Positions 5,169 through 31,738 of a DNA stretch of 35,076 nt are shown one piece after another. Source of the stretch: Pseudomonadota bacterium. GTDB lineage: Bacteria; Pseudomonadota; Alphaproteobacteria; GCA-2731375. Location: positions 1 to 35,076 of the forward strand of contig JAQBYC010000043.1 in the NCBI GenBank assembly GCA_027623205.1, read 5' to 3'. Position numbers and translations under genes: made by a program. Each line of letters starts with the position of its first letter. Within the stretch, counting starts at the first letter, position 1. Below the pieces are notes generated by a model. The model did not search any database. It was given only the letters and a program-made list of their open reading frames with translations, and was not told where the DNA came from.

Positions 5169-5211
5169 AATGCGTAACATCCCATAATCAGTGCCTGTAA
5201 CCGAGGACAAG

Positions 5212-5874
5212 ATGGACGAAGCCGAAAATATCGAGAATCCGGAAGAGGTTGGCCAGGAAGCCGCAGCCGCCAACGATGACGGCGGTTCTGAGGGTCAAGA
5301 CGGTTGCGTAGACCCGGCGGACGAGCCGGATGCGTTGGAGTTGGCCTATGGCGAAGCCGCCGACTTGAAGGACAAGCTGTTGCGCGCCATGGCCGAGACC
5401 GAGAATCTGCGCCGCCGCAACGAGCGGGAAAAGACCGAGTTGCGGAAATACGCCATCGCCGATTTCGCCCGCGACATGCTGGCGGTTTCCGACAATCTGC
5501 AGCGCGCCCTATCGTCGGTCGGCGAGGAAGCCCGAAAGAGCAGCCCCGAAATGGACCAATTGCTGGAAGGGGTGGAGTTGACCCAGCGGGAATTGCAGGG
5601 CCATTTCGACAAACACGGCATCAAGGAAATCAATCCCCTGGGCGAAAAGCTGGACCCCAACCTGCATCAGGCCGTGGTGCAGATTGAACATCTGGAGGCA
5701 CCCCATGGCACGGTCATTCAGGTCATGCAGCCCGGCTATGTGATCAATGACCGCCTGCTTCGTGCGGCCATGGTCGGCGTCGCCAAAGGCCCGCCCGCGG
5801 CCAAGCCGGCCGACGAGGCGACTGCCGAACCCAACGCGCCCAACAGTGGCCACAATGTGGATACCCAAGCCTAG
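5212..5874 (+). CDS. grpE: Nucleotide exchange factor GrpE
   Basis: A 220-residue GrpE, the cochaperone that releases ADP from DnaK. An acidic disordered N-terminus is followed by a long coiled coil containing KDKLLRAMAETENLRRRNERE, then DNLQRALSS. The C-terminal beta domain holds HGIKEINPLGEKLDPNLHQA and VMQPGYVINDRLLRAAMVGV, which are conserved in the family. A GTG at 5191 is in frame, but GAGGA at 5203-5207 lies 4 nt before the ATG at 5212, which therefore is preferred. hrcA lies 89 bp upstream; dnaK and dnaJ are not in this stretch. The stop codon TAG is the first triplet of a hairpin-forming intergenic element. Confidence 0.95.
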   Translation: MDEAENIENPEEVGQEAAAANDDGGSEGQDGCVDPADEPDALELAYGEAADLKDKLLRAMAETENLRRRNEREKTELRKYAIADFARDMLAVSDNLQRALSSVGEEARKSSPEMDQLLEGVELTQRELQGHFDKHGIKEINPLGEKLDPNLHQAVVQIEHLEAPHGTVIQVMQPGYVINDRLLRAAMVGVAKGPPAAKPADEATAEPNAPNSGHNVDTQA

Positions 5875-5977
5875 AGGAATTTTCAATCAATTGGATTCGC
5901 TTCTTTGCGATCCAAGTGATTGGTTCAATTGCTCTATTCTTAAGAGTCCGGGCATGTTTAGAAGAAACAAGCTCTAG
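5872..5977 (+). repeat. Two-hairpin intergenic element, copy A (after grpE)
   Basis: This 106-bp stretch forms two imperfect hairpins. The first is bounded by TAGAGGAATT (5872-5881) and AATTGCTCTA (5927-5936) with inner arms TTGGAT and ATCCAA. The second, 5943-5977, ends in GCTCTAG and has the arms TGTTT and AAACA. The right half matches copy B at 28134-28238 closely (GATTGGTTCAATTGCTCTAT, then AGAGTCCGGGCA against GGAGTCCGGGCA). The grpE stop lies in the first arm. No T-run follows, so it is not a classical terminator, though it may protect or end the mRNA. Confidence 0.85.
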
Positions 5978-7533: not shown

Positions 7534-9066
7534 ATGGTGGCCCATGTGGGTACGGTGGCGTTTCTGGGCATCGAGGCCCTAGGGGTGGATGTCCAGGTGC
7601 AACTGGCCTCTGGCCTGCCGGCCTTCACCGTCGTTGGCCTGCCGGACAAGGCGGTGGCGGAAAGCCGCGAGCGGGTGCGCGCGGCCCTGGGCGCCATTGG
7701 CTTGGCCCTGCCGCCGAAACGCATCACCGTCAATCTGGCCCCGGCCGATCTGCCCAAGGAAGGCAGCCATTATGACCTACCCATCGCGCTTGGCCTGTTG
7801 CTGGCCATGGATGTGCTGCCGGGGGAGGAATTGGCGGAATATAACGCGGTTGGTGAACTCTCGCTTGATGGCGCGCTGACCCGGGTGGCGGGCGTGCTGC
7901 CGGCGGCGGTGGCGGCGCAAGCCCTGGGCCGGGGCCTGATCTGCCCCCTGGAACAGGGCGGCGAGGCGGCTTGGGCCGGCGATCTGCGGGTTCTGGCGCC
8001 GGGAAATCTGCTGGCACTGATCAATCATTTCAAGGGTAGCCAGGTGCTGCCGCAACCGGCGCCCGAATTGGCCGATGAAACCGATGCGCAGTTGGATCTG
8101 GCCGACATCAAGGGCCAGGAAAGCGCCAAACGGGCATTGGAAGTGGCCGCCGCCGGCGGCCACAACCTGTTGCTGATTGGCCCGCCCGGCGCCGGCAAGT
8201 CCATGCTGGCGGAACGCCTGCCGGGCATCCTGCCGCCTCTGGATGCGCGGGAGGCGTTGGAAGTTTCCATGATCGCCTCCATCGCCGGGCAGTTGGGCGA
8301 TGGCCGCCTGCGCCGGCGCCGCCCGTTCCGCAATCCGCATCATTCATCCTCCATGGCGGCGATGATCGGCGGCGGCAGCCGGGCCCGGCCGGGGGAGGTC
8401 AGCCTGGCCCATGGCGGGGTGCTGTTTCTGGACGAACTGCCCGAATGCAGCCGCCAGGTACTGGAAAGCCTGCGCCAACCTCTTGAATCCGGCCGCGCCG
8501 TGGTCGCCCGCGCCAACGCCCATGTGACCTATCCGGCCCGCTTTCAATTCATCTCGGCCATGAACCCCTGCCGCTGCGGCCATTTGGCCGACCCGGACCT
8601 GGCCTGCAGCCGGGCCCCCCGATGCGCCGAGGATTATCAGTGCAAGTTATCCGGCCCCCTGCTGGACCGCATCGATATGCATATTCAGGTGCCGACCGTG
8701 TCGGCCGCCGATCTGGACCTGCCGCCCGCCGCTGAAGGCTCGCGGGAGGTGGCGGCGCGCATAGCCCGCGCCCACGCCCGGCAACGCGACCGTTATGCCG
8801 GCCGGGCTGGTGCGCGGCCAGCCGAAACGATTGTCCGCCTGAACGCCCATGCCGACGGCAAGCTGCTGGAGGCCGTGGCCACCCCCGACCAGGACGGCCG
8901 CGATCTGTTGCGCCAGGCCACCGAACGCATGCGTCTTTCGGCCCGTGGCCATCACCGGGTCCTGCGCGTGGCCCGCACCCTGGCCGATCTGGAGAGCAGC
9001 GAACTGGTACACCGTGTCCACGTGGCCGAAGCCTTAAGCTACCGGCGCCTGGGCAGCGCGAACTGA
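7534..9066 (+). CDS. comM: ComM/YifB family AAA+ ATPase (Mg-chelatase-like)
   Basis: A 510-residue protein with the full ComM layout. An N-terminal Lon-S5-like fold carries LASGLPAFTVVGLPDKAVAE. The Walker A GPPGAGKS is at about residues 216-223, LFLDELPECSRQVLESLRQP holds the Walker B/sensor region, and a cysteine cluster sits in NPCRCGHLADPDLACS. The C-terminal Mg-chelatase helical domain ends in RTLADLESSELVHRVHVAEA. ComM is a hexameric helicase that drives branch migration during natural transformation. A GTG nine bases upstream is possible, but ATG 7534 gives the standard MVAHVGTVAFLGIE. The 3' end has a decayed duplicate at 9901-10033. The 283 bp before the gene hold nothing recognised. 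Confidence 0.94.
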   Translation: MVAHVGTVAFLGIEALGVDVQVQLASGLPAFTVVGLPDKAVAESRERVRAALGAIGLALPPKRITVNLAPADLPKEGSHYDLPIALGLLLAMDVLPGEELAEYNAVGELSLDGALTRVAGVLPAAVAAQALGRGLICPLEQGGEAAWAGDLRVLAPGNLLALINHFKGSQVLPQPAPELADETDAQLDLADIKGQESAKRALEVAAAGGHNLLLIGPPGAGKSMLAERLPGILPPLDAREALEVSMIASIAGQLGDGRLRRRRPFRNPHHSSSMAAMIGGGSRARPGEVSLAHGGVLFLDELPECSRQVLESLRQPLESGRAVVARANAHVTYPARFQFISAMNPCRCGHLADPDLACSRAPRCAEDYQCKLSGPLLDRIDMHIQVPTVSAADLDLPPAAEGSREVAARIARAHARQRDRYAGRAGARPAETIVRLNAHADGKLLEAVATPDQDGRDLLRQATERMRLSARGHHRVLRVARTLADLESSELVHRVHVAEALSYRRLGSAN

Positions 9067-9900: not shown

Positions 9901-10033
9901 AGCGCACGCATCTTTCGGCCCCTGACTAGCACCGGGCTCCCCTTGTCGCCCGCACCCTGGCGGATCAGGAGAGCAGCAAGGCGGTACACCGCGACACGCT
10001 CTCAGCGACCGGCGGCTGCGCCAACTGAACGCC
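9901..10033 (+). pseudogene. Decayed duplicate of the comM 3' end
   Basis: This stretch aligns with 8935-9071 of comM. Shared blocks include TCTTTCGGCCC, GCCCGCACCCTGGC, GAGAGCAGC, GGTACACCG and AACTGAACGCC. Read in frame it gives RTLADQESSKAVHR against RTLADLESSELVHR in the intact gene, followed by a matching ..AN stop. Internal stops and small indels show that it is not functional. The AT-rich foreign patch lies between the two copies, as expected if an element entered at the comM 3' end. The remaining 10034-10207 up to the kinase shows no recognisable feature. Confidence 0.85.
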
Positions 10034-27405: not shown

Positions 27406-27500
27406 TTCCTTCCCCCTGTTCTGTTTGCTCGATGCAGTTGGCTTTGCCGGCATCTTAACGCTATTCTGCCGAAGATTCGAAACAGCATTAGCAATGGCGC

Positions 27501-27507
27501 AGGAGGT
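27501..27507 (+). promoter_or_regulatory. Ribosome binding site that decides the start of the cysteine hydrolase
   Basis: AGGAGGT lies four bases before GTG 27512. The alternative ATG at 27494 has no purine-rich sequence ahead of it, and the AGGAGGT would lie inside its coding part. GTG 27512 is therefore the preferred start. Confidence 0.7.
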
Positions 27508-27511
27508 AACC

Positions 27512-28132
27512 GTGGCCGTTCAGCGGAATGCATTTGAAAATCCGGCTTTGTTGATCGTCGATATGCAGAACGATTTTGTTCGCCAGGACGCGCCGCTGCA
27601 GGTGCCCGACGCCGTTGGCACCATTGCCGCCCACCAGGCCCTGATCGCCGCCTTTCGCAAACACGGCCGACCGGTGATTTTCACAAAATTCCTCTCGACC
27701 AAGACGCCCAGCCTGGGATGGCTCTGGTCACCGGAATGCGAGCCGCACACGAAATGCTGCTGGCCGGGCCATCGCCGGCACTACCCGGACCTGGACACCG
27801 CATTGGACTGCACGGCGGTGATCGATGAACTACGGCCCGATGACGGCGACCTGATTATCGAAAAATACGGCTACGGCGCTTTTCACGGCACCAATCTGAA
27901 TGACTCCCTGCGCGACATGGGGGTCGGCTCTCTGGCTGTTACGGGCACCGTCACTCAGATTTGTGTGGAGGAAACCGCGCGTCAGGCTTTCCATCACCGC
28001 TTTCCCACCACCGTGGTCGCGGACGCCGTCTCCTCGTTCGATCCGGAACTGCATGCCGCCACCCTGCGGAACTTCGCCATGAAATTCGGTTGGGTCCAGT
28101 CCAGTGCCGAGGTCATCGCCGCGCTGGGCTAG
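27512..28132 (+). CDS. Isochorismatase-like cysteine hydrolase
   Basis: A 206-residue protein of the isochorismatase-like amidohydrolase family. The catalytic triad is visible: Asp in [11 protein letters not shown], Lys in [10 protein letters not shown], and the nucleophilic Cys in [17 protein letters not shown]. Members hydrolyse amides such as N-carbamoyl compounds, nicotinamide or biuret; the substrate here is not clear. The insertion [20 protein letters not shown] between core strands includes three cysteines and a histidine and could bind a metal or shape the pocket. The gene is divergent from the GMC oxidoreductase (about 106 bp between starts), so the two may share control. Two bases after the stop begins intergenic element copy B. 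Confidence 0.88.
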
Positions 28133-28133
28133 T

Positions 28134-28238
28134 TAGAGCAATTCTCAATTAGCCGGAGTCGCGATCGCGACTTAGGTAATTGGTTCAATTGCTCTATATC
28201 TTAGGAGTCCGGGCAGGTTTCGAAGAAGCATGCTCTGG
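28134..28238 (+). repeat. Two-hairpin intergenic element, copy B (after the cysteine hydrolase gene)
   Basis: A 105-bp element. The outer arms TAGAGCAATT (28134-28143) and AATTGCTCTA (28187-28196) are perfectly complementary, and the centre is the 16-bp palindrome AGTCGCGATCGCGACT (28157-28172). A second part, 28197-28238, contains GGAGTCCGGGCAGGTTTCG and ends in GCTCTGG. It matches copy A on the same strand and copy C on the other strand. No gene lies in 28133-28338; the rest of that gap is the leader of the thiolase gene. Confidence 0.9.
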
Positions 28239-31415: not shown

Positions 31416-31520
31416 CTAGAACACATTTGATTCAAATACGCTCGGATCCATCAGAATGGAGCAATAGAACCAAACACTTTCGTCGCGTTCGCGACTTCAA
31501 TTAATTGAAAATCGCGCCAG
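31416..31520 (-). repeat. Two-hairpin intergenic element, copy C (after rpsU)
   Basis: On the minus strand this reads GATTTTCAATTAATTGAAG, then GTCGCGAACGCGAC, then TTTGGTTCTATTGCTCC, and ends in a second part with GATCCGAGCG and TGTTCTAG. It is the same arrangement as copies A and B, with more base changes (for example TTGGTTCtATTGCTC against TTGGTTCAATTGCTC). It begins 8 bp after the rpsU stop and has the orientation of that gene. Confidence 0.75.
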
Positions 31521-31528
31521 GTATTGCG

Positions 31529-31738
31529 TTAAAGCAAACCTTCCTTCTGCGCCCGTTTGCGTGCCAGTTTGCGCGAGCGCCGTACCGCCTCGGCTTTTTC
31601 ACGGGCCCGGCGCTCCGACGGCTTTTCAAAATATTTCCGCATTTTCATTTCGCGAAAGACGCCTTCACGCTGCAACTTCTTCTTCAGAGCGCGAAGCGCC
31701 TGATCGACGTTATTGTCGCGAACACTGACCTGTACCAG
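31529..31738 (-). CDS. rpsU: 30S ribosomal protein bS21, apparent CTG start
   Basis: A 69-residue protein matching bS21 throughout: [40 protein letters not shown] and [20 protein letters not shown]. bS21 is a small basic protein of the 30S platform near the mRNA exit. No ATG, GTG or TTG exists in frame upstream of the conserved region; a TGA closes the frame 12 codons before. The codon at the expected position is CTG (31736-31738), followed by GTA CAG GTC, and AAGGAGA lies six bases before it. A CTG start is therefore inferred. A base error or mutation from GTG/TTG would also explain it. Element copy C follows the stop. Confidence 0.9.

Follow-up and report, generated by a model that had tools for sequence, protein, structure and literature searches.

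A genus-specific, MITE-like mobile repeat of about 100 bp that very probably uses stop codons as harmless insertion sites

RIME1 of Rhizobium is an alphaproteobacterial intergenic element of ∼108 bp with two large palindromes, and the repeat that we describe here is likened to it by description, not by sequence. Another alphaproteobacterium, Brucella, carries Bru-RS1 and Bru-RS2, palindromic intergenic repeats of ∼103 bp, and Bru-RS1 is used as a landing site by IS711, an IS5-family, TA-duplicating element with a YTAR target (PMC2266754, PMC3163539). Here too the likeness is one of description (size, palindromy and an alphaproteobacterial host) and not of sequence; the insertion sequences that we found in the terminal TA of copies repeat the relation of IS711 to Bru-RS1 (PMC2266754, PMC3163539). 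Bru-RS1 differs in that the portions of these papers available to us make no mention of a stop-codon placement, and the repeat described here is absent from 188 genomes of the class outside its genus. Repeats supplying stop codons, as here, have a precedent in BOX of Streptococcus pneumoniae, whose short mobile repeats give 36 genes their stop codon with no evident truncation; BOX differs in being modular (boxA/B/C), and the available part of its description gives no link to a TAG or CTAG target (PMC3049150). Correia/NEMIS elements (Neisseria) and RUP (S. pneumoniae) are base-paired elements of ∼107 bp with terminal inverted repeats, TA termini and target duplication, and the ends of RUP resemble an IS630 element (PMC2229807). 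They differ from the repeat here in sequence and in that they have an evident parent or inverted repeats of greater length (24 and 9 bp) (PMC2229807); the two ends of our repeat have TA + GAGCA in common, with about 9 of 11 bases alike, and it has no known parent.

In the window, by which we mean the whole stretch of 35 076 nt that was analysed (contig C101 of a 5.02-Mb genome in 228 contigs), a covariance-model scan found three copies, A, B and C, and no others (Table 1). They are 104–106 bp long and align over their full length, with a mean column identity of 77%. The initial annotation of the window had placed A and B exactly where we find them, and had C at the right place and on the right strand but one base too long; its remark that A and B have different inner stems also holds, and the difference marks subfamilies.

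Table 1. Positions of the repeat copies and their hairpins in the window
Feature	Position	Strand	Description	Basis
Copy A	5872..5977	+	CM match 109.6 bits; overlaps grpE stop codon	
Copy A hairpin 1 (long)	5872..5936	+	outer arms TAGAGGAATT / AATTGCTCTA	fold, pair counts
Copy A hairpin 2 (short)	5950..5974	+	GGGCATGTTT..AAACAAGCTC	fold, pair counts
Copy B	28134..28238	+	CM match 113.3 bits	
Copy B hairpins	hairpin 1 28134-28196; hairpin 2 28211-28235	+		
Copy C	31416..31519	-	CM match 87.6 bits	
Copy C hairpins	hairpin 1 31457-31519; hairpin 2 31419-31443	-		

The two-hairpin fold is clear against shuffled sequences for A (z = -4.1) and B (z = -5.8) and weak for C (z = -2.05), for which the predicted fold differs. 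The GC content of the three copies is 39–48%, compared with 61.5% for the window. Rfam covariance models at their gathering scores gave no match to the repeat, and gave a single tRNA in the window. The grpE gene (5191-5874, +) has the first TAG of copy A (5872-5874) as its stop codon, copy B starts 1 nt past the TAG stop of a gene for an isochorismatase-fold hydrolase (27494-28132, +; Pfam PF00857), and copy C starts 9 nt past the stop of rpsU (31529-31738, -; Pfam PF01165). The genes for GrpE, the isochorismatase-fold protein and ribosomal protein S21 are not connected through the repeat. The rpsU frame has no ATG, GTG or TTG at the expected start and opens with CTG (CTGGTACAGGTCAGTGTT), 8 nt downstream of an AGGAG-like site: either the start codon is unusual or the sequence contains an error. 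The window also holds a 16-bp unit, ACCCGCTCTATCGCTT, repeated six times head-to-tail (161-256; the end units are partly degenerate) just ahead of a minus-strand gene end at 232, and a pair of 89-bp direct repeats (8926-9014 and 9903-9991; 79% alike) 977 bp apart.

The repeat is abundant in its own genome, where BLAST with copy B scored at least 40 places and a covariance model built from 32 copies gave at least 150 matches (the weakest listed with an E-value of 2e-12). A sample of 258 kb drawn regardless of copies contains 18 matches, 15 of these above 45 bits, from which ∼300 copies are projected for the genome; sibling genome G010 has 107 matches in 1.2 Mb. Searches of relatives, which the initial annotation had suggested, confine the repeat to the genus: it is present in all 11 genus genomes searched and absent from 30 other genomes of the family and class, and in a search of 190 genomes of the class only the two belonging to the genus match. 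A core 20-mer is found in named records of uncultured marine Rhodospirillaceae and Alphaproteobacteria MAGs; its single archaeal match, in one MAG (L104), we discounted as chance.

The consensus (TAGAGCAATTTTCAATTAATCGGAGTCGCTATCGCGACTTAAGTAATTGGTTCAATTGCTCTATTCTTAAGAGTCCGGGCATGTTTCGAAGAAACATGCTCTAG) consists of a long hairpin (nt 1-63), a linker and a short hairpin (77-101), and is non-coding, with stops in five of the six frames. Its terminal inverted repeats, TAGAGCAATTTTC and the reverse complement of GAAACATGCTCTA, are alike at 11 of 13 bases, and TAGAGC stands at both ends when these are read outward-in. The repeat is a high-copy, genus-restricted, MITE-like mobile repeat: ordinary in kind, but its stop-codon niche is unusually clear. 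Of the readings first offered for the three copies, the one borne out by hundreds of copies, empty orthologous sites and a defined target is that of a mobile, non-autonomous element that prefers certain targets.

Empty sites were found by comparison with relatives. Downstream of grpE the repeat is absent in all 10 siblings, whose stops are TAG or TAA; L156, the tenth, has its frame shifted close to the end, and the same CAGGCCTAG end is found further on. The site of copy B is empty in G010, a close relative, and in G005 a copy of another subfamily lies 5 nt past the stop of the hydrolase gene and is an independent insertion. The site of copy C has a co-linear empty counterpart in G010. At 14 sites in the G010 comparison both flanks are near enough to read: most are empty, several of them co-linear to the base. 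One of the 14, L122 (9949), has a partial copy that is related but lies at another position. Filled sites have a net gain of 101 bp over co-linear empty sites. Base-exact junctions are few because the siblings are distant (about 75–85% identity).

Among 96 own copies, the base ahead of the left TAG is C in 53, T in 28, A in eight and G in seven, and at the right end C-TA is followed by G in 81 and by A in 13. The terminal TA is kept in 70–78 of the 96, which is below the conservation of the interior. In some own copies the terminal CTAG is replaced by CTGG, CCAG, CGAG or CTCG; perhaps CTAG is lost faster where it is not a stop codon. We rejected a 4-bp duplication of CTAG (the left base varies as above, and its right counterpart is C in 89 copies) and a 3-bp duplication, which would need two G/A positions to agree that do not. 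A 2-bp duplication of TA fits the flank statistics, and is not directly visible because target and repeat ends share the same letters; in a single case (L144, 7223) the orthologue has TAA and the right flank of the copy is TAA, as TA duplication predicts. Judging from the flanks, TA would be duplicated at insertion. The two sides of the target are unequally constrained (the right G against the left C or T), which a symmetric TA-duplicating model leaves unexplained.

We consider it very probable that this is a genus-specific, non-autonomous, MITE-like repeat of ∼100 bp, for which stop codons are harmless sites and whose copies decay neutrally. Its layout is (C/T)TA|GAGCAATTTTC, hairpin 1, TTCTTAAGAGTCC, hairpin 2, ACATGCTC|TA(G/A). 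A DDE-type transposase acting in trans would insert it at YTAR (CTAG being the best target), with duplication of the central TA. For the strand that runs into the element, either end sets a G behind this TA, so that a copy inserted at the TA of a stop codon, TAG or TAA, would rebuild a TAG stop in either orientation; in the case of TAA, TAG would stand at the gene and the A would be left behind the element. Stop codons would thus be harmless landing sites, so that copies would accumulate at stops and between gene ends. Copies would decay neutrally after insertion, the hairpins would be kept in source lineages only, presumably for mobility, and the repeat ends and linker would offer landing sites to TA-duplicating insertion sequences.

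Neither the genus loci with PF13358, PF13340 or PF01797 nor the ∼2 Mb scanned contained an autonomous element with matching ends, and in ∼2 Mb no transposase gene lies between paired repeat ends. IS630- and IS5-type elements were rejected as the parent: they share the target, but the match of their ends is not beyond chance (27 comparisons, best p 0.0185). Two composite candidates in G010 (L202 and L235) turned out to be pairs of copies around host genes; in L202 (12174-14822, G010:C1) a membrane pyrophosphatase-like gene lies between copies whose 3' ends are directed away from it. IS630- and IS5-type insertion sequences use copies of the repeat as landing sites, in nested insertions that make the copies hot spots. 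For example, a copy in L191 (G000:C28) has one end of an IS630-type element exactly at its terminal TA, and so does a divergent-subfamily copy in L184 (G001:C93). In L276 (G000:C193) an IS5-type element stands at a copy's terminal TA, and in L268 (G000:C175) another insertion sequence lies within the TTAA of a copy's linker.

The mobilising enzyme could instead be a Y1 single-strand, hairpin-recognising transposase (IS200/IS605 or REP/RAYT type), which would cut behind (Y)TAG without duplicating the target, so that CTAG would belong to the right end. Two hairpins near the ends, a right-hand G more constrained than the left-hand base and Y1_Tnp genes in nine of the 11 genus genomes would all suit such an enzyme; we nevertheless think it improbable, as the Y1_Tnp loci of the genus contain neither the repeat nor similar ends and carry their own CGGTGACAGT-type repeats, CTAG/YTAR targets are common to the repeat and TA-duplicating insertion sequences, and the TAA flank at L144 (one case only) fits TA duplication. 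A REP/RAYT system was rejected for the lack of association between the repeat and Y1_Tnp genes. Inverted CGGTGACAGT-type repeats enclose Y1_Tnp (RAYT-like) genes at L281, L282, L286, L288, L294 and L295, and are a separate REP-like family.

Placement relative to genes, for which genes were called on 770 kb with a simple codon-usage caller, agrees with the MITE-like reading. Of 97 own copies, only two share more than 20 nt with a called gene. The intergenic contexts of 95 copies are tandem (56), convergent (28) and divergent (11), compared with 54.7, 11.1 and 29.2 expected by length and 52, 21.5 and 21.5 expected by CTAG sites; the target thus accounts for the greater part of the bias towards gene ends. 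The initial annotation had every copy immediately 3' of a gene and co-oriented with it, a pattern due to the small sample of three: genome-wide both orientations occur, and copies between divergent genes are among those just counted.

Gene stops lie exactly at the ends of the 97 own copies in 43 cases: in 26 genes the stop is the repeat's first TAG (5' end), and in 17 it is the reverse complement of the last CTA (3' end), a mixture of orientations (p 0.22). TAG accounts for 42 of these 43 linked stops, compared with 211 of 615 unlinked genes (p 1e-17), and for all 33 linked stops in G010 (21 and 12 at the two ends; p 3e-15). For eight linked genes an orthologue end is present in relatives, and all eight end at the codon where the orthologue ends (TAA in four, TAG in three and TGA in one; the orthologue of one of them, L144 7324-8313, has a copy-like sequence of its own at the stop). 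As these genes end where their orthologues do, the repeat lands on an existing stop and does not shorten the gene.

The coincidence with stop codons may reflect survival only: every YTAR would be open to insertion, and copies that fall within genes or promoters would be lost. We give this an even chance; it needs no preference for gene ends, and it is compatible with the MITE-like explanation, as the simplest form of the latter. The rarity of copies within called genes agrees with it, and stops hold one fifth of the tolerated YTAR sites and one third of the tolerated CTAG sites. The stop-linked share of copies, however, is 44% (43 per 97), compared with 20% for YTAR (p 1e-7) or 32% for CTAG (p 0.006), an excess that is blurred by the simplicity of the gene caller, by small genes that were missed and by copies touching two stops. 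It is conceivable, although we find it doubtful, that transposition actively prefers stop-codon contexts beyond the availability of CTAG, and that gene ends are an evolved niche with repeat ends built to restore TAG.

Copies behind genes might also be mRNA 3'-end elements (for termination, processing or protection) kept in place by selection. Such elements would be expected to have a stable fold and covarying stems, as these do, and copies are commoner between convergent genes and rarer between divergent ones than expected by length (28 and 11 observed, 11 and 29 expected). Pairing covaries between subfamilies, above shuffles and slid controls in the own species and in G010, where complete alternative sets exist for three adjacent pairs of hairpin 2. 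The stems are, however, without any depletion of private substitutions (mutations in one or two copies): there are 1.62 per column in stems and 1.58 in loops, and 12 out of 105 keep the pairing (9.8 expected by chance). Individual copies therefore decay neutrally, which is evidence against a function at RNA 3' ends; together with the covariation between subfamilies it means that the structure is kept in the copy-making lineages and not in the copies. This is what a mobile element shows when its source elements are few. The change of sequence with kept pairing that had been read from the three copies is thus real covariation, but it lies between subfamilies and hence between source elements.

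No intrinsic terminator was found at copy A on either strand, and no T run follows hairpin 1 or hairpin 2 in the consensus. Sites turn over between species, and the 3' bias comes mostly from the locations of CTAG/YTAR sites (p 0.025 is left against CTAG). We rejected an RNA 3'-end function on the mixed orientation at stops, the turnover of sites and the neutral decay, and consider it highly improbable; selection on RNA structure for 3'-end formation or protection, as proposed in the initial annotation, is not supported, on the same grounds and for the lack of a terminator-like site at copy A.

A TA target and ends beginning with G explain why such repeats resemble 3'-UTR RNA elements. Caution is needed, as conserved-looking hairpins behind genes need not be functional RNAs, and the comparison of private mutations in stems and loops is a simple test of a functional RNA reading. 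Should the repeat truly prefer stop codons as its niche, it would be a genomic parasite that limits the harm to its host.
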